NCBI GenBank assembly: GCA_019670725.1
Contig: AP024629.1
Coordinates: 186,001-250,000 of the forward strand
From: Alphaproteobacteria bacterium SO-S41
Lineage (GTDB): Bacteria > Pseudomonadota > Alphaproteobacteria > Micropepsales > Micropepsaceae
Direction: 5' to 3'
Length of the DNA: 64,000 nt
Shown in pieces: positions 45,762 to 61,877 of the stretch. A model generated the notes under the pieces. The model saw nothing but the letters and a program-made list of their open reading frames with translations, was not told where the DNA came from and did not search any database. Numbering within the stretch: the stretch's first letter is position 1; each line of letters begins with the position of its first letter. The translations under genes were made by a program, and so were the position numbers.

Positions 45762-46931
45762 TCAGGATTGGGCGTAGGGATCGGCGGCATCGCGAAGGCC
45801 GTCGCCCATGAAATTGAAGGCGAGCACAGTCAGGATCACGGGGATCACGGGCAGAAGCAGCCAGGGATAGACCGACAAAGCCGCGAAATTCTGGGCGTCG
45901 TTGAGGAGGACACCCCAGCTCACCAGCGGCTCGCGGATGCCGAGGCCGAGGAAGGACAACGCGGTTTCGCCTAGAATCATCGCGGGGATCGCCAAAGTGA
46001 CGCTGGCGATGAGGTGGCTAGAGAAATTGGGCAACAGGTGGCGGAAGAGGATGCGGCGGGGCGAAGCGCCCATCATCGCCGCCGCCACGGCGTATTCCTC
46101 CTCACGGAGCTGCATCACCTTGGCGCGGACGCCGAGCGCCAGGCCGGGCCAGTCGAGCAGGCCGAGAATCACGGTGATGCCGATAAAGACCGACATTGGC
46201 GGCCAGGTCGCGGGAATGGCGGCGGAGAGCGCGAGCCAGAGCGGCAATTCCGGGAGGGCGCGCAGGAGTTCGATGACGCGGAGCACCGCCCAGTCCGTCC
46301 AGCCCCCGAAAAAGCCGGCGAGCCCGCCGAAGATGACGCCGAGCGCAAAGCTGATGGCGACGCCGATCAGGCCGATGGTCAGCGAAGTCCGGGCGCCGAA
46401 GACGACGCGGCTGAAGAGGTCGCGGCCGAGTGCGTCGGTGCCGAAGAGGAAGAGCGTCCCGCCTTCGCCGGCGCAGAAGAGGCGGGTACGGAGTTCGACG
46501 AGACCGAGGAGCTGATAGGGCGTGCCCTCGCAGAAGTAGCGGATGGTCTGCGGTTGGGTGGCGTCTTCGCTATAGATGCGGCGCATCTGGCCGAGATCGA
46601 CCTTCGAGGTCGTGGAATAGGCGAAGGGCAGCGAGAGCCCGTCGGCGCCGAAGAGGCGTACGGCCTGGGGCGGGTGGTGGCCGGCATCGGGGAAGCGCTG
46701 GTCGCGGCCGTAAGGCGCCAGGAATTCCGCGAAGGGCACGACGATCAGATAGAGGAAGGCGAGCAGCCAGAAGGCGGCGAGCGCCAGCCTGTGGCGGCGG
46801 AAGCGGCGCCAGAAGCGGCGGGCGGAGGTGAGGCCGTCAGCGTCCTGGGCGAGCGGTGGGCCGGGCGTGAAGGGGCGCTCGTCCGCCCAGTGCGGCGGGT
46901 CGCCGTCGCGCGGGGGCAAAGCGGCGCTCAC
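45762..46931 (-). CDS. Peptide ABC transporter permease, OppC/DppC-like
   Basis: 389 residues. N-terminal cytoplasmic tail of about 45 residues, one helix (about 50-72), a long periplasmic segment (about 73-165), then the BPD_transp domain with GTDALGRDLFSRVVFGARTSL and the EAA-like loop AAMMGASPRRILFRHLLPN. It imports peptides or related solutes with the OppB-like partner, which it overlaps by 4 bp. Last gene of the ten-gene run starting at 57878. Confidence 0.92.
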   Translation of the reverse strand: MSAALPPRDGDPPHWADERPFTPGPPLAQDADGLTSARRFWRRFRRHRLALAAFWLLAFLYLIVVPFAEFLAPYGRDQRFPDAGHHPPQAVRLFGADGLSLPFAYSTTSKVDLGQMRRIYSEDATQPQTIRYFCEGTPYQLLGLVELRTRLFCAGEGGTLFLFGTDALGRDLFSRVVFGARTSLTIGLIGVAISFALGVIFGGLAGFFGGWTDWAVLRVIELLRALPELPLWLALSAAIPATWPPMSVFIGITVILGLLDWPGLALGVRAKVMQLREEEYAVAAAMMGASPRRILFRHLLPNFSSHLIASVTLAIPAMILGETALSFLGLGIREPLVSWGVLLNDAQNFAALSVYPWLLLPVIPVILTVLAFNFMGDGLRDAADPYAQS

Positions 46932-47953
46932 AGCTTCGCCTTCTGGCCGAGCCGCACGCGCGGGTCGAGCGCGGCGAGGATGAGGTCGGAGACCAGCATG
47001 CCCGCCAGCGTCAACACCGCCGTGAAGAGCAGGATGAAGCCGGCGAGGAAGGTGTCCTGGCCGCGCAGTGCGCTGAGCAGGACCGGGCCGACGGTCGGCA
47101 GGTTCAGCACGACCGAGACGATGACCGAGCCCGACACCATCGAGGGCAGGAGATTGCCAATATCCGCGACAAAGGGCGCGAAGGCGAGGCGGAGCGGATA
47201 GCGCGTCAGCAGGCGTGCCTCACCGATGCCGCGGGCGCGCGCCGCGACGACATAGGGCTTGGCGACCTCGTCGAGGAGATTGGCGCGGAGGCGCCTTATC
47301 ATGATGCCGGCCGAGCCGAGCGCGATGACGAGGGCGGGGATCGCGAGATGGGCGGCGACGTCGCCGAGCTTGGCGAATGACCAGGGCGCATCGATATAGG
47401 CCGGGCTCATCAGCCCGCCGATCGTGATGCCGAACCAGGCATGGGCGAAGGAGAGGAGGACGAGCGCCAAGAGGAAGCTGGGGATCGAGAGGCCGATATA
47501 GGAGACGGTCGAGGCGCTGAAGTCGACGACGCCCCCCGGCCGCCGTGCGGCGAGGAGGCCGACGGGAAAGGCGATCAGATAGACGACGAAAACAGTCGCG
47601 AGATTGAGCAGCGCGGTGAGGCCGATGCGGTCGCCGAGCACTTCGGAGACCGGTTTGGAATAGATGAACGACCAGCCCCACTCACCCTGAAGGAGGCCAT
47701 CGAAACCGTGCGGTCCCGGCCAGAAGCCGGCCCAGATCGCATAGCGTTCGAGGAAGGGCCGGTCATAGGCGAATTCCTGACGCAGGAATTCCAGCCGCGC
47801 CGCGCCGGCGCCCTCGCCCTGGCTCTGCAGCTCCTGCATCTCGTTGGAGAGATAGTCGCCGGGCGGCAGCTCGACGACGACGAAGATCAGGAAGCTGACC
47901 GCGATCAGCGCCGGGATCATCGCCAGGATACGGCGGAGGGCGTAGCGCAGCAT
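46928..47953 (-). CDS. Peptide ABC transporter permease, OppB/DppB-like
   Basis: 341 residues, six predicted helices. N-terminal YALRRILAMIPALIAVSFLIFVVVELPPGD is the family signature, and the EAA loop is RARGIGEARLLTRYPLRLAFAP. It is separated from the binding-protein gene by 161 bp that carry a palindromic repeat, yet still on the same strand. Confidence 0.93.
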   Translation of the reverse strand: MLRYALRRILAMIPALIAVSFLIFVVVELPPGDYLSNEMQELQSQGEGAGAARLEFLRQEFAYDRPFLERYAIWAGFWPGPHGFDGLLQGEWGWSFIYSKPVSEVLGDRIGLTALLNLATVFVVYLIAFPVGLLAARRPGGVVDFSASTVSYIGLSIPSFLLALVLLSFAHAWFGITIGGLMSPAYIDAPWSFAKLGDVAAHLAIPALVIALGSAGIMIRRLRANLLDEVAKPYVVAARARGIGEARLLTRYPLRLAFAPFVADIGNLLPSMVSGSVIVSVVLNLPTVGPVLLSALRGQDTFLAGFILLFTAVLTLAGMLVSDLILAALDPRVRLGQKAKL

Positions 47954-47976
47954 TCAGCGCGTACTCCACTTATTCA

Positions 47977-48090
47977 CGTCATCCCGGCCGTAGCGCAGCG
48001 AAGAGCCGGGACCCAGGTGACTGGGTACGGTGCTTGCGGCCCCTGGGTCCCGGGTCTCGGACGCCTGCGGCGGCCTCGCCCGGGATGACG
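47977..48090. repeat. Dispersed intergenic palindromic repeat, copy B
   Basis: 114 bp bounded by perfect inverted arms CGTCATCCCGG (47977-47987) and CCGGGATGACG (48080-48090), with an inner 11-bp inverted pair CCGGGACCCAG/CTGGGTCCCGG (48006-48016 and 48043-48053). It lies inside the opp-like operon between the binding-protein and permease genes. The right part is nearly identical to copy A at 10986-11110. Confidence 0.82.
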
Positions 48091-48114
48091 GGTGGGTATC
48101 GGTTTGAGCTGGCA

Positions 48115-49996
48115 TCACCGGTCGAGCCAGAAGGCATCGATGCGGTAGATGCCGAACTGGGCGCCGGGATCCCAGCCGAAGACGCCGGACTCGGGGACGT
48201 TGCGCAGCGCGTTCGATGCGACGATGGGCTGCAGCACGCCCGAGACCGTGCCGATGGAAAACTGTTCGGTCGCGTTGATGTCGAGCATCTCGGTCCAGAT
48301 GCGCGTGCGTTCAGCGTCGTCGGTCGTGGCGTTCCACGCGGCGTACAGCGTGAGAAGCTTCTGCGCCTCTGGGAGGTCGGCGGCTTCGCCCGACTTGCCC
48401 TTGGTCGTGATGTACTGGCCCCAGCGCGGCCAGCTCAGCATTTCCTGCGTCACCGGGGCGAGTTCGTCGGGAATGGCGGAGGGGCGCGGCACGCCGTTTT
48501 CAAGGCCCGACCAGACCGTCATGATGCTCTCGCCGCCATAGGCGCGGTTGCGCAGCACGTCGCGCTCGTAGGGCCGCGTGATGAGGCCGATGCCGGCGGC
48601 GCGCCAGGTCGGCGTGATCAGTTCCAGCATGGCGGATTCCTCCGCGCTCTCGCCGGAGGTTTCGATCACGATTTCCAGCTTGCGGCCGTCGGGCATGAGG
48701 CGGAGGCCGCCCGCGTCGCGCTTGGTAAGACCCATCTCGTCGAGCAGCGCGTTGGCCTTGGCGGGATCGTAGACGGCTTCGCGCGTGGTGCGCTCGGCGG
48801 AATAGAGCGGGCTTTCCTTCAGCGCGGTGTTGTTGCCGGGGGTCGCGAGGCCGAAGAACAGCGTCGCGTTGATGTCGTCGCGGTCGATCGCGGCGGAGAG
48901 CGCCTGGCGGAAGCTGCGGTCGCGCAACAGCGCGCGCCAGGTCGGATCGGTCGTGGTGAGATTAGGATAAAGCGCGACCTGCGAGCCCTTGGTCACCGGC
49001 CAGAGGAGAACGCGGAATTGGCCCTTGCCCTCCGCTGCCTTCAGCGCGGTCGCGTCGGAGAACGAGATGCCGCGCGCCTGGAGATCGCTGTCGCCCGCCG
49101 CGGTCTTCGCGCCGATGAGGCCGGGCTCGACGACGGTGACCTCGATCTTGTCGATATAAGGCAGCTGCATCCCGTAGCGGTCGACGCGGTGAAAGTAGGG
49201 ATTGCGGTGCAGGCGATAGACCGGTCCGCCGCCGGCTTCGATGACGAAGGGCTGCAGGGTCGGCATATCCGGATTGTCGTTGTCGTACATGGAATCGCGC
49301 CGGTTATGCAGCGCGGCCCAGCTCTTCACCTTGGCCTTGGCGACGAGGTCGGCGATTTCGTTGGGATCGCCGTATTTGATGTGGAAGCGCTTCAGGTAAT
49401 GCGCGGGGCGGTAGATGTAAGGCTCGCGGGCCTGCGCGAGCAGCGCGAGGAAGCGCGGGTTCGGCGCCGGCCATTCATAGCGGACGGTCGTTTCGTCGAT
49501 GATGGTGACGGTGGGCGGTTGGCCGTCGACCAGCAGTTCCTCGGGCACGCCGGCCGGGGTCAGTTCCGCGTTGTTCGCAATGTCTTCCCAGAAATAGCGG
49601 AAGTCCTCTGACGTGAAGGGCGCGCCGTCGGACCATTTGTGGCCCTTGCGGAGATGCAGCGTGAAGCTGCGGCTATCGACGACATCGAGGCTGGAGAGAA
49701 TGTCGGGCTTGATCTCGAAGTTCTCGTCATAGCCGACGAGGCGCGCATAGCCCCACACATTGAGAAGCCGGATGTCCTTGTCCTTGGGGAGGAGGAGGCG
49801 GAGCGTGCCACCGCTCTTGCCGGTGGTGCGGCCCAAGGTTTCGAAGCCGCCAACGAGGGGATCGGCGGGGACGCGCGCGGTGACGGGCGGCAGTGCGCCG
49901 TTGGCGACGTCGGCGGCGAGCGCGGGCGGGTCGATGGGGGCGGGCGCGTCCTGCGCTATCGCAGGACCGGTGATCGCCCAGCTCAGAAGCAGAACG

Positions 49997-50016
<20 letters not shown>
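48115..50016 (-). CDS. Peptide-binding protein of ABC importer (SBP family 5)
   Basis: 633 residues. Signal peptide about 1-21 (ending AIAQD). SBP_bac_5 features: RSFTLHLRKGHKWSDGAPFTSEDF, LARDRS-like ALLRDRSFRQALSAAIDRDDI, and a C-terminal YRIDAFWLDR. It is longer than DppA (about 535), as are binding proteins of the Yej/microcin C type. Periplasmic ligand capture for the neighbouring permeases; the ligand is unknown. The start lies inside the end of the ATPase gene (20-bp overlap). Confidence 0.93.
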
Positions 50017-51826
<1,810 letters not shown>

Positions 51827-51835
51827 GCGGGGACC

Positions 51836-52960
51836 TTAGCTGCCTCCCGCGATCTCTGCGAGGAGGGCCGCGCTGCGGGCCGCGCCGCCGATATCGAGCG
51901 GGTCGTCGGGCAGCGAGGGCAGGTCCAGCGCATGCTGCGCAGCATGCGCGAGGGTCTGGGGCGTCAGGTCGGCTTCGTCGAGACAGGCCATGAAGTCGAG
52001 GGCGGCGAGGCGTTTGGCGCGTGTCGCCTGCTCGGGCTCGCCGGGCGGCGCGAAGGGAACGACCAGAAGCGGGGTGCGGGCTGCGATGGTCTCGATGACG
52101 GTGTTGTAGCCGCCGCGCGAGATGGCGAGCCGGGCGGCGGCGATGCGCTGCGGCAGGTCGGGCGTGCTGCGCAGCACGGTGACGGTTTCGCTCGCGGCAT
52201 TTGTCAGTTCGGCGAACACCGTGTCAGGTGCGTTGGGGCCGGTGATGAAGGTCCAGGGTTCGTCCAGCAGCAGGCCGTCGCGATGGGCCTGAAACGCAGC
52301 GCGCAGCAAGGGCGCGGCATCGCCGCCGCCGCCGGCCGAGACGACGACGCCCCGGCGGTTGGCGACGGGCGGAGGCGGCGGGGCGACGACATAGCCGGTG
52401 CCGCGCATCGGCACGGGGACCTCGCCCGGCCACAGTTCGTTGAGGCCGAAGATCGAGGTGTCGCCATGGACGAGGACGGCGTCGTAATGCGCGCGCAGGC
52501 GGTCGGCGCATTCGAGGACGCGGTCGGTGTTCGACGGCCAGGTCGGGAGGTCGCGGAGGCTGGCGACGATCTTTGCGTTCGCGGCTTTTGCTGCAGCAAC
52601 GAGGTGCAGCAATTCGGCGCTCAGTTTGCGGCGGCCGAAGGGGAAGGTCTCGGTGACGACGATGTCCGGGCGGGCTTCGGCCAGCGCTGCGTCGATAAGG
52701 GTTTCGCGGTTGGTCCAGAAGGCGGCATCGGGCGGGTTGCCGTTGGCGTCGACGAGGCGGGCATAGCTGGCGTCGGGGGAACGGACCGGAGGAAGTTCGA
52801 CGAGGCGAACGGCCGGGTCGAGGCGGCCGGGGAGCGGGGTGTTGCCGGCGATGACGGTGGCCGCGCCGCCGGCCTCGATCACCGCATTGGCGATGGCCGC
52901 GATACGGGCATAGTGGCCGGCGCCCCAGAGGTGATTGACGTGGAAGAGAACGCGGGTCAC
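51836..52960 (-). CDS. GT-B glycosyltransferase, MurG/COG4671-like
   Basis: 374 residues. N-terminal domain with HVNHLWGAGHYARIAAIANA; C-terminal domain with VVVSAGGGGDAAPLL and the donor-binding AISRGGYNTVIETIAARTPLLVVPF typical of MurG-like (GT28) enzymes. Donor and acceptor unknown. Similar in build to the enzyme at 55840, which has the same GGYNT element. Overlaps the histidine phosphatase by 4 bp. Confidence 0.85.
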   Translation of the reverse strand: MTRVLFHVNHLWGAGHYARIAAIANAVIEAGGAATVIAGNTPLPGRLDPAVRLVELPPVRSPDASYARLVDANGNPPDAAFWTNRETLIDAALAEARPDIVVTETFPFGRRKLSAELLHLVAAAKAANAKIVASLRDLPTWPSNTDRVLECADRLRAHYDAVLVHGDTSIFGLNELWPGEVPVPMRGTGYVVAPPPPPVANRRGVVVSAGGGGDAAPLLRAAFQAHRDGLLLDEPWTFITGPNAPDTVFAELTNAASETVTVLRSTPDLPQRIAAARLAISRGGYNTVIETIAARTPLLVVPFAPPGEPEQATRAKRLAALDFMACLDEADLTPQTLAHAAQHALDLPSLPDDPLDIGGAARSAALLAEIAGGS

Positions 52961-53544
52961 GCGCGCGGCTCCAGCATCAGGTTTGCCTGGAGCAACGTGA
53001 CCGTGCCGTCCGGCTTGAGATCGAAAAGGTGCGCGGCGCGCCAGCGGAGTTTGACGGGCGGCTTCTGCGCCATGTCCCAGCCAAGGGCGAGGCTGAGCGT
53101 CGCGCGGATGATGCCCTTGTGGGTCACACCGACAAACGCGCCGCCGCGCACCGCGAGATCGGCGAAGAGCGGGCGGAGGCGGGCTTGAACGTCACGTGGG
53201 GATTCGCCGTGGGGCGGGCGGAGGTCGAGGCCGGACTGGCCGCGGGCGGAGAGGCGTTCGGCGCGGGGATTGGTGATGGCGGTCGAGAGGCCCTCCCAGG
53301 CGCCCCAGTTGGTTTCGATCAGTCGGTCTTCGGTGGCCGCATCGCCGTGCAGCAATTCGGCGGTCTGGCGGGCGCGACGGAGGGGGCTAGTGAGCCAGGT
53401 CGCGCCGGCGAGCGCCGCGGGGGCGCGGAGAGTGCGGAGTTCGGCGATGCCTTTGGGCGACAGCGGGATGTCGGCGCGGCCCTGGATGCGGCCCTCTTCG
53501 TTCCAAGCGGTGACGCCATGGCGGATGAGCGCGAGGGTCGTCAC
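52957..53544 (-). CDS. Histidine phosphatase family protein
   Basis: 195 residues. Catalytic RHG with His9 in LALIRHGVTAWNEEGRIQGRADIPLS, acid Glu in ETNWGAWEG, and second His in VTHKGIIRA. Members dephosphorylate sugar phosphates, nucleotides or proteins. Being wedged between glycosyltransferase genes by 4-bp overlaps on both sides suggests a phosphosugar or lipid-linked sugar substrate, which is inference. Confidence 0.9.
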   Translation of the reverse strand: MTTLALIRHGVTAWNEEGRIQGRADIPLSPKGIAELRTLRAPAALAGATWLTSPLRRARQTAELLHGDAATEDRLIETNWGAWEGLSTAITNPRAERLSARGQSGLDLRPPHGESPRDVQARLRPLFADLAVRGGAFVGVTHKGIIRATLSLALGWDMAQKPPVKLRWRAAHLFDLKPDGTVTLLQANLMLEPRA

Positions 53545-54632
53545 GCGCCGATCCCCTTGAGGATGGGCGCCAGGCGCTGTGCGGCATACACGATGCTGCG
53601 TTCGCCATGAACGAAGGCGCTGGCGACCTCGCCCATGGTCTCGCGCGTCTGGCGGTTGGCGAGGAGGATGCGGAGCGACTGGGCGAGCGCCGCGGAATCG
53701 CCGGCCGTGCTGAGGAAGCCTCCGCGGCCCTGATGGACGACGGCGGGGACGCCCGCCGTGTCGCAGGCGACGACGGGGAGGCCGCTGGCCTGCGCCTCCA
53801 GAAAAGCGAGGCCGAAGGCTTCCTTGAGGCCGGGCCAGAGATAGAGATCGGCGCGGGCATAGAGTGCGGCCATGGACTCTGGTGGGAAGCGGCCGGCGAA
53901 GGTGACACGGGTCGGAGGGAAGTTCGCGAAGGCGGCCTCGGCCTCGGCGTGGCCGGACCCGTCGCCGGCGACGAGATAGTGCCAGGGGAGATCGGCGATG
54001 CGGGCGAGTGCCGCGGCGATCAGCGGGAAGTTCGCGAGCTTCTTGCCGGGGCGCAGCATGGCGACGGAGAGGATGATAGGCGTGCGCGCGGGGCGGCTGC
54101 GGGCCGGCGGGAAGAGTGCGGTGTCGATGAAGGGATCGAGGCGGAAGAGGCGCTCGGGCGGGACGACGGCGGCGAGACCAATGCGGTCATGCGCGGTCAT
54201 CGCGATGACGGCATTCGCGGCCTGAAGCGCGCGTTTTGCTGCAGCATGGGGTGCAGCAAAATCGCCGGCGGCGCGCTTCGCGGCATAGCTCGCTTCGACG
54301 ATGGCGTAGGGGATGTTCAGCGCCGCCGCGACCGCTGGGCCCAGATGATCCGGCGATTTGTAGTAGTTCATATAGGTCAGCCACAGCGCGGGCGGGGCAG
54401 CGCGATGGGCGGCGATAAGGCGCGTGACTTCTGTTTCCGCGGCGGCGGCGATGGCGCTTTGCTGCAGGGTATTGCCGGTCGCTTCGTAGCTGCGGAGCGC
54501 TGAGGCGCCGTCGATCGTGTATCCGAGTTGCCCGAGGGCGCGGGTGAGGAGGCCGCTCATGGCGCGGTCGCCCGATGGCGGCGCGCCTGGCGCGGGCGGG
54601 TTCATGGGGCAATAAAGCAGCGCGCGGCTCAT
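53541..54632 (-). CDS. GT4-type glycosyltransferase
   Basis: 363 residues from ATG 54632, in a 4-bp overlap with the next enzyme's stop. The N-terminal part is unusual for GT4 (LLTRALGQLGYTIDGASALRSYEA), while the C-terminal donor domain is standard: ILSVAMLRPGKKLANFPLIAAAL, the YLVAGDGSG strand and EAFGLAFLEAQASGLPVVACDTAGVPAVV with the E-x7-E motif. It retains its sugar configuration if a true GT4 enzyme. Substrates unknown. Confidence 0.87.
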   Translation of the reverse strand: MSRALLYCPMNPPAPGAPPSGDRAMSGLLTRALGQLGYTIDGASALRSYEATGNTLQQSAIAAAAETEVTRLIAAHRAAPPALWLTYMNYYKSPDHLGPAVAAALNIPYAIVEASYAAKRAAGDFAAPHAAAKRALQAANAVIAMTAHDRIGLAAVVPPERLFRLDPFIDTALFPPARSRPARTPIILSVAMLRPGKKLANFPLIAAALARIADLPWHYLVAGDGSGHAEAEAAFANFPPTRVTFAGRFPPESMAALYARADLYLWPGLKEAFGLAFLEAQASGLPVVACDTAGVPAVVHQGRGGFLSTAGDSAALAQSLRILLANRQTRETMGEVASAFVHGERSIVYAAQRLAPILKGIGA

Positions 54633-55843
54633 GCCATCGCCCCGCGCAGCAAGGCGGCGATGGCGTCGGCGCCGGGCGCGGCGGCGAAATCCGTGGCCAC
54701 GCGCGTGCGGCCCGCTTCGCCCATGGTGGTGCGCGCGGCGGGATCGGCAATAAGGTGGGCGAGGGCCGTGGTTAGTGCAGCCGCGTCGTTCGGCGGGCAT
54801 AGCAGGCCGTTCGTGCCGTCGGTGATGAGTTCGCCGACGCCCCCGACTTTGGTGGAGACGACGGCGAGACCCTGGCTCTGGGCCTCAACGATGACATTGG
54901 GCAGGCCGTCGCGGTCGCCGTCCGCGGCGACGACGGGTGTCAGCGCGAAGAGATCGGCAGCCTGCATTGCGGTGCGTACGGCGTCTTCGCTCTGCGAGCC
55001 CATCCAGGTGAAGCGGTCTACCAGATCATGCGCGACGACCCGGGCCTTGAGGTCGGGCAGCAGCGGGCCACCGCCGATATGGACGAAACGCCAGTGCTGA
55101 GCAGGGTCGAGGGCGGCCAGCGCATCGATCAGGGTTTCGTAACCCTTCTTCTCCACCGCACGGCCGACGGAGAGGATCGTGACGGGATCGCTCGCGTCGC
55201 TGCCATCGCGCGGCGGACGCGCGGGTGCGGCAGGCCAATGCGCGAGGTCGAGGCCGTGGCGGTTGAGGGACAGCGTGTCGCCGCCGACGGCTTTGAGGCG
55301 GCCCAGCCCATCCGCGGTGCAGGTCGTGACGAAGCGGGCCGCGGTCAGCTTGTCCTTCAGATCCCAATCGGGCGTCGTCCAGATGTCGCGGGCGTGGGCG
55401 GAGACCGCGAAAGGAAGACCTGTCAGCGCCGCCGCATAGCGGGCGACCGAGCCGGGTGTGTGGATGAAGTGCGCGTAGAGCAGCGTCGTCTGCGGCGGCA
55501 GTTCGGCGGCGAGGACCAGCGCCTGGCCGAAGCGACGGATGCGGTTGCGGGTGCGGTCGCGCTTCCAGTCCGCGCGGAAGAGGGCCTTCGCCGCGCGGTA
55601 GTTTTTCGACCAACGGAATTTACGCCAGGCGCGGAAGACGCGGCGCGGCTCTTGATGGAGATATTCCGGCACGTAGGTGACGACGCCTTTCACCGCTGCA
55701 TGCGCGGGATGGGTCTTGGTGTCGGTGGGGTGGCGGAGCGACCAGAGCGAGAGAGCGAGGCCGCGGTCTTCGAGCGCCTCCAGTTCGCGCGCGATGAAGG
55801 TCTCCGAAAGGCGCGGCCAGCCCTTCAGGATGACCGCGATCAT
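54629..55843 (-). CDS. GT4-type glycosyltransferase
   Basis: 404 residues from ATG 55843. N-terminal IAVILKGWPRLSETFIARELEALEDRG is typical of exopolysaccharide GT4 enzymes; then FAVSAHARDIW, ILSVGRAVEKKGYETLIDALA, and the E-x7-E region LPNVIVEAQSQGLAVVSTKVGGVGELI. Overlaps both neighbours by 4 bp. Likely builds a cell-surface glycan or glycolipid. Confidence 0.9.
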   Translation of the reverse strand: MIAVILKGWPRLSETFIARELEALEDRGLALSLWSLRHPTDTKTHPAHAAVKGVVTYVPEYLHQEPRRVFRAWRKFRWSKNYRAAKALFRADWKRDRTRNRIRRFGQALVLAAELPPQTTLLYAHFIHTPGSVARYAAALTGLPFAVSAHARDIWTTPDWDLKDKLTAARFVTTCTADGLGRLKAVGGDTLSLNRHGLDLAHWPAAPARPPRDGSDASDPVTILSVGRAVEKKGYETLIDALAALDPAQHWRFVHIGGGPLLPDLKARVVAHDLVDRFTWMGSQSEDAVRTAMQAADLFALTPVVAADGDRDGLPNVIVEAQSQGLAVVSTKVGGVGELITDGTNGLLCPPNDAAALTTALAHLIADPAARTTMGEAGRTRVATDFAAAPGADAIAALLRGAMA

Positions 55844-57015
55844 GTCAGCCAGCGCGCGCTGAGACGCACCACTTCGCCGAGCCCGTCCATCATGCCGAGA
55901 CGCAGCGCGGCGGAGGGTTTCGGCTGGGCGGCGAGGCCGCGGATCGCTTCGGCCATCGCGAACGGGTCGCGCGTACCGCCATGTTCGGCAGGGTCTTCGA
56001 GCATGCGTGCGAGACCCATGTCGGCGGCCTGCTTTGCGCGAATCCATTGTTCCCGGCGCGGTTTCTCGCGGGGCACGATGACGGCCGGCTTGTCGAAGGA
56101 GAGGATCTCGCAAAACGTGTTGTAGCCGCCCATCGCGACGACGCCGGATGACTTCTCGACGATGCGCTCCATCTCGGCGTCGAAGACCGTGGCGGTGACT
56201 TCGGGCAGCGCCGCGGCACGGGCGAGGAAATTCTCCTGCGCGGCCGGTTCCATGAAGGGGCCGAGGACGAAGAGCGCCTGGGGCAGATCGGCGCCGAAGT
56301 GTTCGTAGGCGGTGAGCGCCCAGTCGATCAGCCCCTCGCCGTCGCCGCCGCCGCCGGTGGTGATGAGGACGAACGGCCCGTCGGGCAGGCGTTGTTGTGG
56401 CCGTCCGGGTGAGGTCTCGCGTTTCAGATAGCCGGTGAATTTCGTCTTCTCGCGAAGCCCTTCAGCGAGCGCCACGCCCTGCAGCGGGTCGTAGATGTCC
56501 TCGCAGCCATAGATCCAGATCTCGTCATAGAGCTCGGACAAAGCGGGGTGGACGCCCTTGCGGTGCCATTCCTGGTCCAATGCCTCGGCGTCGTCGAGCA
56601 CGTCGCGGAGGCCTAGGACGAGCTTGGTGCCGCGCTCCTTCAGCATGCGCAACGTTTGGGTCAACTCGCCGCGGAGGCCCAGCGGTTCCTTGTCGACGAT
56701 CAGGAGATCGGGCGCGAAGACGCGGGCGGCCTGCTCGATGATTTCGGCGCGCAGGCGAAAGGCGTCGCCCGCTTCCACCGAGAGCTTCAACGGCACATAG
56801 GCACCGTCCTTCAGCTTGATGACGCCGGGGACGCGGACGAAATCGACGCGTTCGGGAAATTCGAAGGCGCCGATGATCGGCGAGCCTGAAAGGATCAGGG
56901 TGGTGAGATCGGGCCGCGATGCCGTCAACGCCCCGCCCAGCGCCCGGCAGCGCCTGAGGTGGCCGAGGCCGAAACTGTCATGGCTGTAGACGAGAACGCG
57001 GGCGGGTTGGGTCAA
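55840..57015 (-). CDS. GT-B glycosyltransferase, COG4671-like
   Basis: 391 residues. RVLVYSHDSFGLGHLRRCRALGGAL at the N-terminus is the signature of COG4671 predicted glycosyltransferases. PDLLIVDKEPLGLRGEL and the C-terminal VVAMGGYNTFCEILSFDKPAVIVPR (MurG-like donor site) follow. It shares its donor motif with the enzyme at 51836. It overlaps the alpha/beta hydrolase and the GT4 gene by 4 bp each. Confidence 0.88.
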   Translation of the reverse strand: MTQPARVLVYSHDSFGLGHLRRCRALGGALTASRPDLTTLILSGSPIIGAFEFPERVDFVRVPGVIKLKDGAYVPLKLSVEAGDAFRLRAEIIEQAARVFAPDLLIVDKEPLGLRGELTQTLRMLKERGTKLVLGLRDVLDDAEALDQEWHRKGVHPALSELYDEIWIYGCEDIYDPLQGVALAEGLREKTKFTGYLKRETSPGRPQQRLPDGPFVLITTGGGGDGEGLIDWALTAYEHFGADLPQALFVLGPFMEPAAQENFLARAAALPEVTATVFDAEMERIVEKSSGVVAMGGYNTFCEILSFDKPAVIVPREKPRREQWIRAKQAADMGLARMLEDPAEHGGTRDPFAMAEAIRGLAAQPKPSAALRLGMMDGLGEVVRLSARWLT

Positions 57016-57878
57016 AGGAAATCGCGCAGCGCCGCCATGAAGCCGTCGAACTGGTCGTGGTGGACCCAGTGGCCGGCATTCTGGAACGAGATGACCTTGG
57101 CCGTCTTGAAGTGTGCGATCCGGCCGTCTTCCTCGGGGTTCGAGGCCCAGCTGTCGGCGCCGTAGACCAGCAAAGTCGGGCAGGTGATGGCGCCCCAGAG
57201 CTCCTCGACATCGGCCGGCGCCATGTCATAGGGCGGGAAGGCGCGCATATAGTTGTCGAACTTCCAGCTATAGGTGCCGTCCTCGTTCTGGCTGACGCCG
57301 TGCACGGTCAGGTGCCGGGCCTGCTCGTCGGAGAGGTGGTGGTTCTCCTCCTTCATCCGGGCATAGGCCTCGTCGAGCGTCGCGTAGCGGCGGTGCGAGC
57401 GGGCGGCGATGCCGCGCCTTGCATCGACCCAGCCGCGGATGCGGTGTCCCATGGTCTTCGCCAGGCGCTCGGCCATCATTTTGGGCGATGGTCCCATGCC
57501 CTCGATGGCGACGAGCTTCTTCACATTGTCCGGATAGACGCCGGCATAGCGCAGGGCGATGCCGCCGCCGAAGGAATGGGCGACGATGGTGACGGGGGCG
57601 AGCTTCAACTGGTGGATGAGCTGGCCGAGGTCGTAGAGGCTGGCGAGCGGGCCGTAATTGCCGTCGGCCGACCAATCGCTGTCGCCGTGACCGCGGAGGT
57701 CCGGCGCGATGACATGCCAGTCCTTGCGCAGTTCCTGGGCGGTCCAGTCCCAGGAGCGGGAATGGTCGCGCCCGCCATGCAGCAGGATCAGCGGCGGTGC
57801 GTCGGGGTTGCCCCAATCGACATAGCGCAGTTTGAGGCGCTGGGAGACATAGCTGTGCGAGGTCGGGCCTGAAATCAT
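57012..57878 (-). CDS. Alpha/beta hydrolase
   Basis: 288 residues from ATG 57878. Oxyanion HGG at 34-36, nucleophile Ser102 in AHSFGGG, acid Asp242 in VYGADSW, and His270 in NAGHWVHHDQ complete the triad. An ester, lactone or thioester substrate is possible. It is the first gene of the ten-gene run, divergent from the pseudo-ABC gene across 129 bp. Confidence 0.92.
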   Translation of the reverse strand: MISGPTSHSYVSQRLKLRYVDWGNPDAPPLILLHGGRDHSRSWDWTAQELRKDWHVIAPDLRGHGDSDWSADGNYGPLASLYDLGQLIHQLKLAPVTIVAHSFGGGIALRYAGVYPDNVKKLVAIEGMGPSPKMMAERLAKTMGHRIRGWVDARRGIAARSHRRYATLDEAYARMKEENHHLSDEQARHLTVHGVSQNEDGTYSWKFDNYMRAFPPYDMAPADVEELWGAITCPTLLVYGADSWASNPEEDGRIAHFKTAKVISFQNAGHWVHHDQFDGFMAALRDFL

Positions 57879-58007
57879 GCCTGTTGTGTGCCGAATCCCG
57901 GGGGGCCGCGCAACCACGGTGCGGCATCCCGGCACTGGTGACCATCGCCGCTTGCGCGCCGCGCGGCCTGCCCGTATGGCGATGGCAACTCCCGGACCCA
58001 GGGGCGC
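57879..58007. promoter_or_regulatory. Divergent region between the glycosyltransferase operon and the ABC-like gene
   Basis: 129 bp that must carry promoters for both directions. I see no good -10/-35 pair. A GAATC (GANTC) site is at about 57894. GGGGCGC precedes the ABC-like ATG. Confidence 0.35.
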
Positions 58008-60638
58008 ATGGAGCGTCGGCTTTTCACCTATATCTGGCGGCACAGCTTCGGCGAGCAGCTGCGGGTGCTTGCCCTTATTCTGCTGTCCCTGCCCTTCTAT
58101 TTCGTCTCGCTGAACCTGCCCAAGCTGATCGTCAACGGGCCGATCCAGGGCGACGGGTTCGCGGACGGGGCGAGCCGGACCTATTTCAGCGTGCCGCTGC
58201 CGGACTGGCTGGGCGGCGGGCATCTGTTCCCCGGCCTCAGCCTCGACCAGATGAGCGCGCTGTTCGCGCTGTCGTTCACCTTCCTGGGGCTCGTCTGCGT
58301 CAACGGGCTCTTCAAGTACCGCATCAATGTGATGAAGGGGCGGATGGGCGAGCGGCTGCTGCGGCGGCTTCGCTATGAGCTGGTCGACCGGATCCTGCGC
58401 TTCTATCCCCAGCGCCTCCGCCGGGTGAAACCGGCCGAGATTTCCTCGATGGTGAAGGACGAGGTCGAGCCGCTGGGCGGGTTCGTGGGCGAGGCTTTCG
58501 CGACGCCGGCCTATCTGGGCGGCCAGGCGCTGACCGCGGTCATCTTCATCGTGCTGCAGAACCCGCTGCTGGGGGCGATCGCGGTCGGCATCGTTTCGAT
58601 CCAGGCCTTCGTCATCCCCTATCTGCGGCGCCCCATCCTGGCGCTGGGGCGGCAGCGCCAGCTGACCGCGCGCGAATTGTCGGGCCGGGTCGGCGAGATC
58701 GTCGATGCCGCGGCGGATATCCAGGCAAACGACACCTCGAACTGGGAACGCGCCGACATCACGCGGCGGCTGGGGCGGATCTACGACATCCGCTTCGAGA
58801 TCTATCGCCGGAAGTTCTTCGTCAAATTCCTCAACAACTTTCTAGCCCAGGTCACGCCCTTCTTCTTCTACGCAGTAGGCGGTTATTTCGCGATCAAGGG
58901 CCAGCTCTCGATCGGCCAGCTCGTGGCCGTCATCGCGGCCTACAAGGACCTGCCCGGGCCGATCAAGGAACTGCTCGACTGGTATCTGGAAAAGCAGGAC
59001 GCGCAGATCAAATACGAGCAGGTGGTCGAGCAGTTCCGCGCCGACCGGCTGATCGATCCCGCCGCGCATGCGCCGGGCGACTACGCCCCGCTGGCGAACG
59101 AGGTCGAGGTGCGCGAGGCGACGGTCGCCGACGAGACCGGGGCGCGCTTGCTCGATGCCGTCAGCTTCGCCTTTGGGGTCACGCAGCATGTCGCCTTTGT
59201 CGGCCCGCCCGGCGGCGGCAAGGAAGCGGCGGCGGCGCTCATCGCGCGGCAGATGAGCGTGCGTTCGGGCACGGTGGTGATCGGCGGCCAGCCGATCGAG
59301 GGCCTGCCGCAATCGGCGACTGGACGGCGCATCGCCTATGTCGGACAGGACGCCTACGTGTTTGGCGCGAGCCTGCGCGACAACCTGCTCTACGGCATTC
59401 GCAACGAACCGCGCTGCGCGGCCGCTCATGTCGGACCGGCGCTCGCGCTCGCCGAGGCGCGGCGACTCGAGGATGGGCTCGCGGGGAATGCGCCGTTCGA
59501 CATCGAGGCGGATTGGCTCGACTACAAGGCGCTCGGCATCGAAGGCCCGGCCGGCGTCGACTGGGCGCTGATGGGCGTCGTGACGCTCGCCGGACTGGAG
59601 GCGGATGTCTTCCGCTTCGGCCTGCAGGGCCGCTTCGATCCGGAGGAGGCGCCCGCCGTCACCGAACGGCTGCTGAAGGCGCGCCAGCTCTTCAAGGAGC
59701 GCGAGATGACCGGCGATGTCGATGTCGTCGAGCCGTTCGACGCGGCGCTCTACAATGCGCAGGCGACGATCGGCGAGAACCTGCTGTTCGGTGTCGCGAT
59801 CGGGCAGACCTATGCGCCGCAGAACCTCGCGCAGAACCGCACGGTGAAGCACCTGCTGGAAGAAAGCGGGCTCGACGCGCAGCTCTTCACCCTCGGCCGC
59901 GGGATCGCCGAGACGATGGTCGAAATCTTCCGCGGCCTGCCGCCGGACCATCCCTTCTTCGCGCAGTTCAGCTTCATCGCCGCGGCCGAACTGCCGCTCT
60001 TCGAAACGTTGCTCGCACGGCTCGACGCAGGTCAGACGGTGACACCCGACCAGCGCGCGCGGATGATCGGTCTCGCTTTTTCGTACAGCGAAGCACGCCA
60101 TCGTCTCGGCCTGCTCGATGATGAGATGCGCGCCAAGCTGCTGAACGTGCGCCGTCTCTTCCATGAGCGCTTGCCGCAGCACGAGCGGGCGAAGATCGCC
60201 TTCTACGATGCCGCCGAATACAACGAGGCCGCATCGGTGGAAGACAACATCCTGTTCGGCCGCGTCGTCTATGGTGTGCCGAACGCGCAGGCGCGGATCG
60301 AACAGATCCTCGCCGAGGTGATCGCGGAGCTTGGCCTGAAAGACGACATCGCGCGCATCGGCCTTGGCTTTCCCTGCGGCGCGGCGGGCAAGCGCCTTGC
60401 GCCGTCACAGCGCCAGCGCCTCGCGCTCGCGCGCGCACTCGTCAAGAACCCCGATCTGCTGGTCGTCAACGGCGCGCTCGCGGTGCTCGATCCCAGTGCG
60501 CAGAACGAGATCCTGAAGCGCGTGCTGACCGCGCGCACGGGACGCGGCGTGATCTGGACGCTGGCGCCGGGCCAGGATGCATCGGCATTCGACAATGTCG
60601 TCGGTTTCGAAGGCGGGCGCCTCGCCGGCGCCGCTTGA
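58008..60638 (+). CDS. ABC exporter-like protein with degenerate, expanded nucleotide-binding domain
   Basis: 876 residues. An exporter-type membrane domain (about 15-320) leads to an NBD that begins normally (GPPGGGK at 399-405, Q-loop at Gln447). The critical residues are replaced: Ser/Thr after the Walker A Lys is Glu406; the signature is LAPSQ (797-801); the Walker B Asp is Asn821 and the catalytic Glu is Gly822 (LLVVNGAL); the switch His is Ala853. Between the Q-loop and signature lie about 330 residues instead of roughly 60. They include two further copies of the post-Q-loop motif: RDNLLYG 457-463, GENLLFG 589-595 and EDNILFG 745-751. ATP hydrolysis is unlikely. A cyclic-nucleotide-binding protein gene follows 13 bp downstream. 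Confidence 0.85.
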   Translation: MERRLFTYIWRHSFGEQLRVLALILLSLPFYFVSLNLPKLIVNGPIQGDGFADGASRTYFSVPLPDWLGGGHLFPGLSLDQMSALFALSFTFLGLVCVNGLFKYRINVMKGRMGERLLRRLRYELVDRILRFYPQRLRRVKPAEISSMVKDEVEPLGGFVGEAFATPAYLGGQALTAVIFIVLQNPLLGAIAVGIVSIQAFVIPYLRRPILALGRQRQLTARELSGRVGEIVDAAADIQANDTSNWERADITRRLGRIYDIRFEIYRRKFFVKFLNNFLAQVTPFFFYAVGGYFAIKGQLSIGQLVAVIAAYKDLPGPIKELLDWYLEKQDAQIKYEQVVEQFRADRLIDPAAHAPGDYAPLANEVEVREATVADETGARLLDAVSFAFGVTQHVAFVGPPGGGKEAAAALIARQMSVRSGTVVIGGQPIEGLPQSATGRRIAYVGQDAYVFGASLRDNLLYGIRNEPRCAAAHVGPALALAEARRLEDGLAGNAPFDIEADWLDYKALGIEGPAGVDWALMGVVTLAGLEADVFRFGLQGRFDPEEAPAVTERLLKARQLFKEREMTGDVDVVEPFDAALYNAQATIGENLLFGVAIGQTYAPQNLAQNRTVKHLLEESGLDAQLFTLGRGIAETMVEIFRGLPPDHPFFAQFSFIAAAELPLFETLLARLDAGQTVTPDQRARMIGLAFSYSEARHRLGLLDDEMRAKLLNVRRLFHERLPQHERAKIAFYDAAEYNEAASVEDNILFGRVVYGVPNAQARIEQILAEVIAELGLKDDIARIGLGFPCGAAGKRLAPSQRQRLALARALVKNPDLLVVNGALAVLDPSAQNEILKRVLTARTGRGVIWTLAPGQDASAFDNVVGFEGGRLAGAA

Positions 60639-60651
60639 AGGAGATGAGCGC

Positions 60652-61122
60652 GTGACCATCGTTGAGGAAGTTGAGGCGCTGCGGCGCATCCCCTATTTCG
60701 CCACGATGGATCCGGCGAAGCTGAAGCTGCTGGCCTTCACCAGCCATCGCTTCTCGCTGCCCGCGGGCGGCGTACTGTGCCGCGAGGGCGAGCCAGGCGA
60801 TGCCGCCTATATCGTGATGGAGGGCGATGCCGACGTCATCGTGACGACCGAGGACGGCCGCCGCGTCGTGGTCGCGACCGTGCCGAAGAACACCTTCATC
60901 GGCGAGATGGCGGTGCTGCGCAACGTGCCGCGCACCGCGACAGTCGTGGCCTCATCGCCGCTGACCGCGCTGAAGGTCGGCAAGGATGCGTTCTTCCAAT
61001 TGCTGCGCGACGTCCCGCAATTCGCGCTGGAACTGATGCGCGAACTCGCCGAGCGGCTGGAAGATACGACAGTGCAGTTGCGCGATGCGCGGGCGAAGAT
61101 CGAGGCCGGCGGGCAGGATTGA
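60652..61122 (+). CDS. Cyclic nucleotide-binding domain protein
   Basis: 156 residues from GTG 60652, with AAGGAG at 60638-60643. It is a single CNB domain: REGEPGDAAYIVMEGDADV, then the phosphate-binding cassette FIGEMAVLRNVPRTATV with Glu85, Arg94 and Thr95 intact, so cAMP or cGMP binding is feasible. The C-terminal helix (FALELMRELAERLEDTTVQLRDARAKIE) is coiled-coil-like. There is no HTH, so it is not a Crp-type regulator. It probably acts with the ABC-like protein encoded immediately upstream. Confidence 0.9.
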   Translation: MTIVEEVEALRRIPYFATMDPAKLKLLAFTSHRFSLPAGGVLCREGEPGDAAYIVMEGDADVIVTTEDGRRVVVATVPKNTFIGEMAVLRNVPRTATVVASSPLTALKVGKDAFFQLLRDVPQFALELMRELAERLEDTTVQLRDARAKIEAGGQD

Positions 61123-61271: not shown

Positions 61272-61877
61272 ATGTCTGTCATCAAAAGCGGCCTCGCCGC
61301 CACCCTTGCGCTTGCCTTGTCGTCTGCTGCTGTTGTCATCGCCGCCCCTGCCGCGCTGGCCGCGATGTCTGAAAAGACCCCGGGCATGGCTGAAAAGACC
61401 GTCGAGGTCGGCGGTGCGCCGATGTATCCGTCCAAGACCATCGTCGAAAACGCGATGAACTCGAAGGACCACACCACGCTCGTCGCCGCGGTGAAGGCCG
61501 CCGGCCTCGTCGAAACGCTGTCTGGCCCCGGCCCGTTCACCGTCTTCGCGCCGACCAATGCGGCGTTTGAAAAGCTCCCGGCCGGCACCGTCGATACGCT
61601 GGTGAAGCCCGAGAACAAGGAAATGCTGACAAAGATCCTGACCTATCACGTCGTCGCGGGCACGATGACCTCGGCCGACATCGCCAAGGCGATCGAAGCG
61701 GGTGGCGGCAAGGCGACGCTGACGACGGTGGAAGGCGAAACGCTGACCGCGGCGATGGACGGCGACAAGCTGGTCCTCACCGACGCGAAGGGCGGCACCT
61801 CGACCGTCACGATCGCCGACGTCACGCAGTCGAACGGCGTCATCCATGTCGTCGACACCGTGCTGATGCCGAAGTAA
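61272..61877 (+). CDS. Fasciclin (FAS1) domain protein
   Basis: 201 residues. Signal peptide about 1-31 (ending ALAAM). One FAS1 domain with TLVAAVKAAGLVETLSGPGPFTVFAPTNAAFEKLP (H1) and ILTYHVVAGTMTSADI, ending SNGVIHVVDTVLMP (H2). Extracytoplasmic adhesion or matrix protein. GGAGGAG precedes the ATG. The 149-bp upstream gap has a small GAGACG/CGTCTC hairpin near 61236. Confidence 0.92.
   Translation: MSVIKSGLAATLALALSSAAVVIAAPAALAAMSEKTPGMAEKTVEVGGAPMYPSKTIVENAMNSKDHTTLVAAVKAAGLVETLSGPGPFTVFAPTNAAFEKLPAGTVDTLVKPENKEMLTKILTYHVVAGTMTSADIAKAIEAGGGKATLTTVEGETLTAAMDGDKLVLTDAKGGTSTVTIADVTQSNGVIHVVDTVLMPK

Follow-up and report, generated by a model that had tools for sequence, protein, structure and literature searches.

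A putative family of pseudo-ATPases with the ABC exporter fold, a rebuilt nucleotide-binding domain and a linked nucleotide-sensor gene

Proteins of the ATP-binding cassette (ABC) superfamily are defined by ATP, and a member with a degenerate ATP site raises the question of what it does instead. This question is posed by a gene at positions 58,008 to 60,638 of the 64,000-nucleotide stretch of contig AP024629.1 of Alphaproteobacteria bacterium SO-S41 that was analyzed here (the window), which codes for a protein of exporter type that we refer to as the pseudo-ABC protein. Based on a census of its relatives, patterns of conservation and conserved gene linkage, we propose that it belongs to a widespread, predicted family of pseudo-ATPases that share the ABC exporter fold, a rebuilt nucleotide-binding domain (NBD) and a linked nucleotide-sensor gene, i.e. 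a variant of a known superfamily. Furthermore, we propose, at a probability of roughly 0.6, that the NBDs of these pseudo-ATPases have been turned into a docking and regulatory platform for the product of the linked gene, and that the membrane domain is independent of ATP. No paper treating the family was found in the literature, as judged by titles and the beginnings of abstracts and with subscription papers outside the scope.

Translation of the open reading frame (ORF) confirmed the frame, the coordinates and the residues named in an earlier sequence-only reading of this DNA: Glu406, which follows Lys405 in place of the Walker A Ser/Thr, the signature LAPSQ, Asn821 and Gly822 in Walker B, and Ala853 at the H-loop position (in TLAPGQD from residue 851). 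To these we add Asp375, which replaces the A-loop aromatic residue and had been missed, as had additional helical subdomains in the NBD, a cyclic-nucleotide-binding (cNMP) partner and relatives possessing only the transmembrane domain (TMD). The statement that every catalytic NBD residue was lost holds for the changed sites just listed but not for Walker A Lys405, Q-loop Gln447 and D-loop Asp828, which are still present. The motif set of an active exporter, comprising an A-loop aromatic residue, GxxGxGK[ST], LSGGQ, a Walker B Asp-Glu and an H-loop His, is not found in the protein. Its domain order is that of type IV ABC exporters, with ABC_membrane (PF00664, residues 85-310, 46.6 bits against a cut-off of 28) preceding ABC_tran (PF00005, in two stretches, 51 bits against a cut-off of 25); the scores with the CydD (TIGR02857) and MsbA (TIGR02203) equivalogs, 138 and 134.9 bits, are below the respective cut-offs of 435 and 602. 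The AlphaFold model has a mean predicted local distance difference test (pLDDT) score of 83.6, with values mostly of 85-95 in the NBD and its insert and below 50 in two short TMD stretches (161-174 and 314-320). The best Foldseek matches in the PDB are exporters akin to P-glycoprotein and TmrAB (probability 1.00), with a poor whole-chain superposition (template-modeling (TM) score by query 0.2-0.4 overall, and 0.36-0.40 for the half-exporters TmrAB, TM287/288, PCAT1 and Atm1). The exporter fold is therefore kept, as had been suggested, but the NBD is split by an insert of about 315 residues (466-780) that was not described at the time. The source genome (4.44 Mb, one contig) contains a single copy, its 12 other matches being far weaker (best E 3.7e-14).

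The degeneracy of the ATP site extends to the relatives. We collected 252 matched frames and, after dropping 21 duplicates and five short pieces (L028 twice, L030 twice and L256), retained 226 distinct full-length proteins, including the source protein; near-identical rows were left in, and the rows are not independent. None has a complete ATP site: out of eight canonical features scored, the maximum in any protein is five, and 70 proteins have none. Position 406 is acidic in 191 (Glu in 113, Asp in 78) and Ser or Thr in 13, the A-loop position 375 is acidic in 218 (Asp in 163, Glu in 55) and aromatic in none, and position 376 is acidic in 208. Lys occurs at 405 in 115 proteins and Arg in 49, and in a Rhizobiales branch the Walker A lysine too is replaced by Ala, Gly, Ser or Thr; the Q-loop Gln at 447 is found in 48. 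Position 821 is Asn in 154 and Asp in 27, and positions 822 (Glu in 89) and 853 (His in 43) vary widely, so that the expectation of Glu, Asn, Gly and Ala at 406, 821, 822 and 853 in all relatives did not hold. The check for homologs with a normal site, likewise suggested earlier, returned only one protein, L224, in which K-[S/T], the Walker B Asp, the catalytic Glu and the His occur together (GKT, DE, H); its site is still incomplete, and a conserved family is not refuted by it: there is no aromatic residue at 375, no Q-loop Gln, and the signature is LSGAQ rather than LSGGQ. As a control we used an ordinary exporter of the source genome with its best 30 matches in a 96-genome sample of the class (31 rows, including the query's own copy), and nine checked positions (Tyr, Lys, Ser/Thr, Ser-Gly-Gly, Asp, Glu and His) are canonical in 31/31. 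The degenerate pattern, recurring in 226 proteins and absent from the control exporters, is thus more than chance. Based on the degenerate site in every relative counted, mostly with acids at 375, 376 and 406, we predict that the family cannot run on ordinary ATP hydrolysis and that the pseudo-ABC protein probably works without burning ATP.

By Fitch reconstruction on two trees from one alignment, the ancestor of the family already had an acid at 406; the trees were rooted on one outgroup taken from the ordinary exporters of the source genome (a midpoint-rooted tree was left unused), a check of outgroup monophyly was negative, and deep support is partly low (0.27-0.88 at the first nodes of the core tree). 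With an acid reconstructed as ancestral, the loss looks old, and the change from Ser/Thr to an acid does not look random. Relatives were recovered from 22 of 61 genomes in a sample of related genomes, the source genome included (E 1e-60 or better). In the class sample, a 48-row profile (thresholds: E at most 1e-100, completeness at least 80) detected them in 130 of 386 genomes; in a phylum sample, whose make-up by class was not given, the 28 positives among 397 genomes all belong to the same class. A contig-level search yielded 308 confirmed stretches, of which 80 were kept; three loci from this search are titled Betaproteobacteria or Plasticicumulans (L052, L073 and L055). Several genomes carry two or three copies (G182: L159, L165 and L308; G347: L158 and L251; G755: L157 and L164; G077: L160 and L254), both copies read per genome are degenerate, and such pairs are possible heterodimers. 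Two further copies appear in pieces: that of G010 (L028 and L030) is broken over two frames of 772 and 420 residues, by a recent break or an assembly error, and the match in Sinorhizobium meliloti Ak57 (L259:10001-12651) is in two pieces, with no coding sequence listed between the methyltransferase and a Crp-like gene.

The distribution of conservation is inverted with respect to ordinary exporters. In the pseudo-family, 51/350 TMD columns are conserved at 95% or more, as against 1/104 and 6/93 columns in the two parts of the NBD, whereas in the control exporters it is the NBD that is better conserved (83/226 columns, versus 16/308 in the TMD); since the sets differ in size and divergence, these figures are a contrast and not a measurement. 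Across four clades, the median ratio of non-synonymous to synonymous substitution rates (dN/dS) ranges from 0.04 to 0.15 in the TMD, from 0.04 to 0.35 in the N-terminal part of the NBD (NBD-N), from 0.06 to 0.32 in the insert and from 0.04 to 0.21 in the C-terminal part of the NBD. All four regions are under constraint, which is weakest in the source genus. These values, spanning 0.04-0.35, and the absence of a complete site from 226/226 proteins uphold the view that the gene is not a pseudogene and that it represents a conserved pseudo-ATPase family.

The insert is a constant feature, residues 466-788 spanning 315-328 positions in 48/48 aligned relatives, and folded alone with its own alignment it gave a pLDDT of 92.7 and a predicted TM-score (pTM) of 0.82. 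Pfam returned no match for it in the source copy and, across the 48-member insert alignment, only scattered matches (E 0.0019 or weaker, each in at most three of the 48). With VIA-align the top 19 rows for the insert model are all ABC exporters, aligned over one stretch of 68-74 residues with Z values of 4.0-5.8 (for example MsbA 427-498, Z 4.4), all below 8 and under the range rated safe by the tool; the next row, an unrelated protein, has a Z of 3.3. The stretch, positions 113-257 of the model (about 578-722 of the protein), corresponds to the part of exporter NBDs from the Q-loop to the signature helix. Comparison by hhalign of three separate segments, 430-562 (r1), 563-719 (r2) and 720-815 (r3), related r1 to r2 (E 1.6e-5, probability 79), r1 to r3 (E 1.7e-6, probability 90) and r2 to r3 (E 3.4e-13, probability 98), with probabilities of 0.1-0.3 for four control pairs with TMD segments. 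The core shared by the repeats reads QDAYVFGASLRDNLLYG, AALYNAQATIGENLLFG and AAEYNEAASVEDNILFG. Our reading is that the helical subdomain of the NBD is present three times, copies one and three being the ends of a normal NBD. In ordinary exporters the helical subdomains contact the membrane domain.

We then consider the gene that follows. A protein with a cNMP domain (PF00027, 77.6 bits against a gathering score of 27.5) is predicted to start at a GTG 13 bases past the pseudo-ABC stop codon, with an AAGGAG at 60638-60643 that overlaps the last base of that codon. A same-strand cNMP match is found in 79/80 contig loci at a median offset of 0 from the end of the pseudo-ABC gene. Under a stricter rule applied to 225 loci, the cNMP gene is adjacent in 190 and fused to the C-terminus in 14 (204/225 together), and two of the fusions, in Ruegeria TM1040 (989 residues) and L029 (1028 residues), were confirmed by Pfam. 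This linkage lends indirect support to the earlier suggestion that the protein may be ligand-gated. The phosphate-binding cassette pattern G-E-x-A..R-x-A is present in 193/216 loci with a cNMP match. On Rhizobium etli p42e, a nucleotide cyclase gene (PF00211, L261:2643-3986) lies just upstream of the cluster of importer, glycosyltransferase, pseudo-ABC and cNMP genes and is a candidate source of the ligand.

A further line of evidence comes from 11 TMD relatives without an ABC_tran match at E 0.01, nine of which score above the ABC_membrane cut-off of 28 bits and two below it (L264, 26 bits; L307, 19.9 bits). Three of them, of 399-434 residues, are on plasmids of Phaeobacter, Thalassospira and Pseudosulfitobacter, where their genes, annotated as ABC transporters, sit among those for multicopper oxidases, cupredoxins and c-type cytochromes. 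The genes listed around these three include no cNMP gene, as would be expected if the cNMP protein goes together with the NBD. The eight others, of 313-413 residues, come from genomes that also carry a pseudo-ABC gene; matches in G072 (L300) and G204 (L303) were left uncounted as no matching frame was shown. These relatives suggest that the membrane domain can be retained by itself. Seven TMD-only proteins of 313-377 residues (L296, L298, L299, L301, L302, L304 and L307) are from diverse genomes of the class, and no common neighbor was recognized around them.

Table 1. Features of the pseudo-ABC locus (positions in the window) and of its plasmid-borne relatives (positions in the named locus). 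Homolog counts refer to the 80 kept loci, in which the two GT28 and two GT4 genes may cross-match and many flanks are shorter than 5 kb.
Feature	Position	Strand	Basis
Pseudo-ABC exporter, 876 residues	58008..60638	+	ORF and translation (ATG 58008, TGA 60636-60638); Pfam ABC_membrane and split ABC_tran; AlphaFold2 pLDDT 83.6
TMD, residues ~1-345, best-conserved part	58008..59042	+	PF00664; column conservation; AlphaFold2 helices
A-loop position, Asp375-Glu376 replacing the aromatic	59130..59135	+	Asp/Glu at 375 in 218/226, at 376 in 208/226
Walker A remnant GPPGGGKE, residues 399-406, acid for Ser/Thr	59202..59225	+	Motif read and family census
Start of repeat 1 with the Q-loop and the first DNLLYG element, residues 444-465	59337..59402	+	Census; hhalign
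Insert of ~315 residues splitting the NBD, residues 466-780	59403..60347	+	Alignment; insert-only model, pLDDT 92.7
Repeat 2, additional Q-loop/helical subdomain, residues ~563-720	59694..60167	+	hhalign; VIA-align
Repeat 3, extending into the signature helix, residues ~720-815	60165..60452	+	hhalign r1-r3, E 1.7e-6
Degenerate signature LAPSQ, residues 797-801	60396..60410	+	Motif read and census
Degenerate Walker B LLVVNG, residues 817-822	60456..60473	+	Motif read and census
H-loop position, Ala853	60564..60566	+	Motif read and census
cNMP domain protein, 156 residues, GTG start inferred	60652..61122	+	PF00027, E 7.5e-22
Alpha/beta hydrolase, divergent first gene (start chosen; open frame reaches 58223)	57012..57899	-	
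GT28-type glycosyltransferase	55840..57015	-	PF04101; homolog in 66/80 loci
GT4 glycosyltransferase (start chosen)	54629..55744	-	Homolog in 66/80 loci
GT4 glycosyltransferase (start chosen)	53541..54641	-	Homolog in 61/80 loci
Histidine phosphatase family protein	52957..53544	-	Homolog in 20/80 loci
GT28-type glycosyltransferase	51836..52960	-	Homolog in 64/80 loci
Importer genes: fused double ATPase, substrate-binding protein (SBP) family 5, two permeases	45762..51826	-	
Plasmid TMD-only proteins	L260:11773-13077; L264:8785-9984; L265:8773-10077		

The other neighbors (Table 1) include glycosyltransferases and an importer. On R. etli p42e and in S. meliloti Ak57 importer genes and three glycosyltransferases likewise stand in front of the pseudo-ABC gene; the Ak57 record is titled pSymA, while strain 2011 has its match on pSymB. 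The count for an ATPase neighbor was not used, as it matched the pseudo-ABC protein itself, and clusters of open frames, which are inflated by frames on the opposite strand, were left out of the gene counts. The neighboring glycosyltransferases suggest envelope glycans as a possible substrate. In Ruegeria TM1040, a set of a permease pair, an SBP and an ATPase (L262:1-5338) is found some 7 kb away from the gene for the pseudo-ABC-cNMP fusion. Downstream of the cNMP gene in the window are genes for a fasciclin-domain protein (61272-61877, homolog in 1/80 loci) and a serine beta-lactamase-family protein (PF00144, 62019-63071, homolog in 0/80 loci).

In light of these observations, we posit that the two NBDs would form permanent structural platforms, on which the extra helical subdomains would supply new docking faces. 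The cNMP protein would dock on the NBDs and, upon sensing a small-molecule ligand, would signal to the membrane domain, which would then switch state without ATP. Most speculatively, the membrane domain might move or hold an envelope glycan or a lipid-linked precursor from the neighboring glycosyltransferases, and the movement might be passive or driven by an ion gradient, comparable to that of ethidium through the isolated membrane domain of MsbA (MsbA-MD), which is reported to move ethidium with a pH gradient in the absence of the NBD (PMC4979069, in the portion available). A more specific version, which we advance only tentatively, is that of a widespread alphaproteobacterial device working without ATP, in which an NBD pair, enlarged by the triplicated helical subdomain and with acidic pockets, receives a cyclic-nucleotide or alarmone sensor that gates an ATP-free or ion-driven membrane domain, the NBD having gone entirely in related lineages.

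Several observations weigh against the proposal of an NBD platform with an ATP-independent membrane domain. Lys or Arg is kept at 405 in 164/226 proteins, on account of which weak nucleotide binding is conceivable, and an aromatic residue somewhere in 373-375 in 53/226 could act as a shifted A-loop. In the source genus the TMD (dN/dS 0.14) changes more slowly than the NBD and the insert (0.21-0.35). With the insert model alone, Foldseek found no significant relative (best E 0.33), and the low Z values of VIA-align count on the same side. The cNMP gene was not found in 21/225 loci, three of which run off the fetched stretch, and 23/216 cNMP matches are without the cassette pattern. The glycosyltransferase counts come from the 80 kept loci only, and no glycosyltransferase is among the 20 listed genes around the fused Ruegeria TM1040 form. 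In the accessible part of one report, MsbA-MD failed to rescue the growth of an MsbA-deficient strain (PMC8660845), and lipid movement without an NBD is accordingly not established even for MsbA; in that of another, the cNMP domain of HetC bound ppGpp and not cAMP (PMC10986499).

Some of the same evidence could be accommodated by other explanations. The degenerate ATP site, the additional helical subdomains as docking faces and the glycosyltransferase neighbors would also suit a protein that transports nothing and serves only to keep the glycosyltransferases and the cNMP sensor in place at the membrane. We consider such a scaffold unlikely, as the TMD is the best-conserved part (51/350 columns), beyond the needs of an anchor, and as TMD-only genes are found on three plasmids with no glycosyltransferase among their listed neighbors. 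An ATP sensor, with both NBDs binding ATP without hydrolysis in the manner of regulatory ABC proteins of the SUR/CFTR type, could draw on the basic residue at 405, the retained Gln447 and Asp828 and the aromatic residues in 373-375; against it are the acids at the A-loop position (218/226) and at the Walker A Ser/Thr (191/226) and the loss of the lysine as well in the Rhizobiales branch. A pocket containing three acids would be expected to repel ATP, and we regard a sensor of this kind as rather improbable.

Degenerate sites are common in heterodimeric exporters, going by the portion of the literature available (PMC7756269), and the source genome has other exporters, which together would allow the pseudo-ABC protein to be the degenerate half of a heterodimer whose ordinary half-exporter is encoded elsewhere, as in TM288/TM287 or TAP. 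However, no exporter gene is adjacent among the genes scanned in the window or those listed for the R. etli cluster, the linked partner is instead the cNMP protein, and the signature is also degenerate, which would affect the partner's site too; we hold this explanation to be very improbable. Ordinary decay of an exporter gene in the source lineage, to which the dN/dS of NBD-N and insert in the source genus (0.32-0.35, versus 0.14 for the TMD) and the same-family relative of G010 split into two frames might point, can be practically dismissed. It was rejected based on the census and dN/dS: there are 226 full-length proteins with degenerate sites across the class, purifying selection acts in the four tested clades, and the insert has 315-328 residues in 48/48 relatives.

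With the exporter architecture kept and no complete ATP site in any of the proteins counted, the family would be a natural test of NBD roles beyond hydrolysis, and of whether the membrane domain of an exporter works without ATP, a claim that earlier rested, in the part of the literature available, on an engineered truncation of MsbA. The linkage further suggests a second-messenger input into a membrane protein of the ABC fold. It also offers a functional lead for genes annotated as “ABC transporter ATP-binding protein”, a label that is probably misleading for this family.

Among known systems, the degenerate-site exporters TAP, TM287/288 and Pdr5 come close in the state of the ATP site, and in Pdr5 one site is altered at the Walker A Lys, the Walker B Glu, the H-loop His and the signature; they keep one canonical site, whereas in the pseudo-family no full site was counted and no canonical exporter gene is linked (PMC7756269, in the part seen). 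HetC of Nostoc, a PCAT with an N-terminal cNMP domain, is likewise an exporter-fold protein that needs a cNMP domain, but it differs in requiring its ATPase and peptidase residues, in the N-terminal placement of the domain and in the binding of ppGpp by that domain (PMC10986499, from the available text). The NHLM bacteriocin exporters (TIGR03796) and cyc_nuc_ocin (TIGR03896, “bacteriocin-type transport-associated protein”) again combine exporter-fold and cNMP-domain proteins; the scores here are sub-threshold, 115.5 bits for the pseudo-ABC protein (cut-off 853.3; best stretch from profile position 213 of 710) and 44.5 bits for the cNMP protein (cut-off 161.05), and the pseudo-ABC NBD, unlike that of the NHLM exporters, is degenerate. 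The TIGR03796 and TIGR03896 families probably work together. In SUR and CFTR the ABC exporter fold serves regulation or a channel rather than pumping, but these proteins still bind ATP, are eukaryotic and have no comparable cNMP partner. With the type IV (ABCB/MsbA-like) half-exporters the pseudo-ABC protein has in common the membrane domain, the order of domains and the fold of the NBD, and it is set apart from them by its degenerate acidic ATP site, its triplicated helical subdomain and its cNMP partner.

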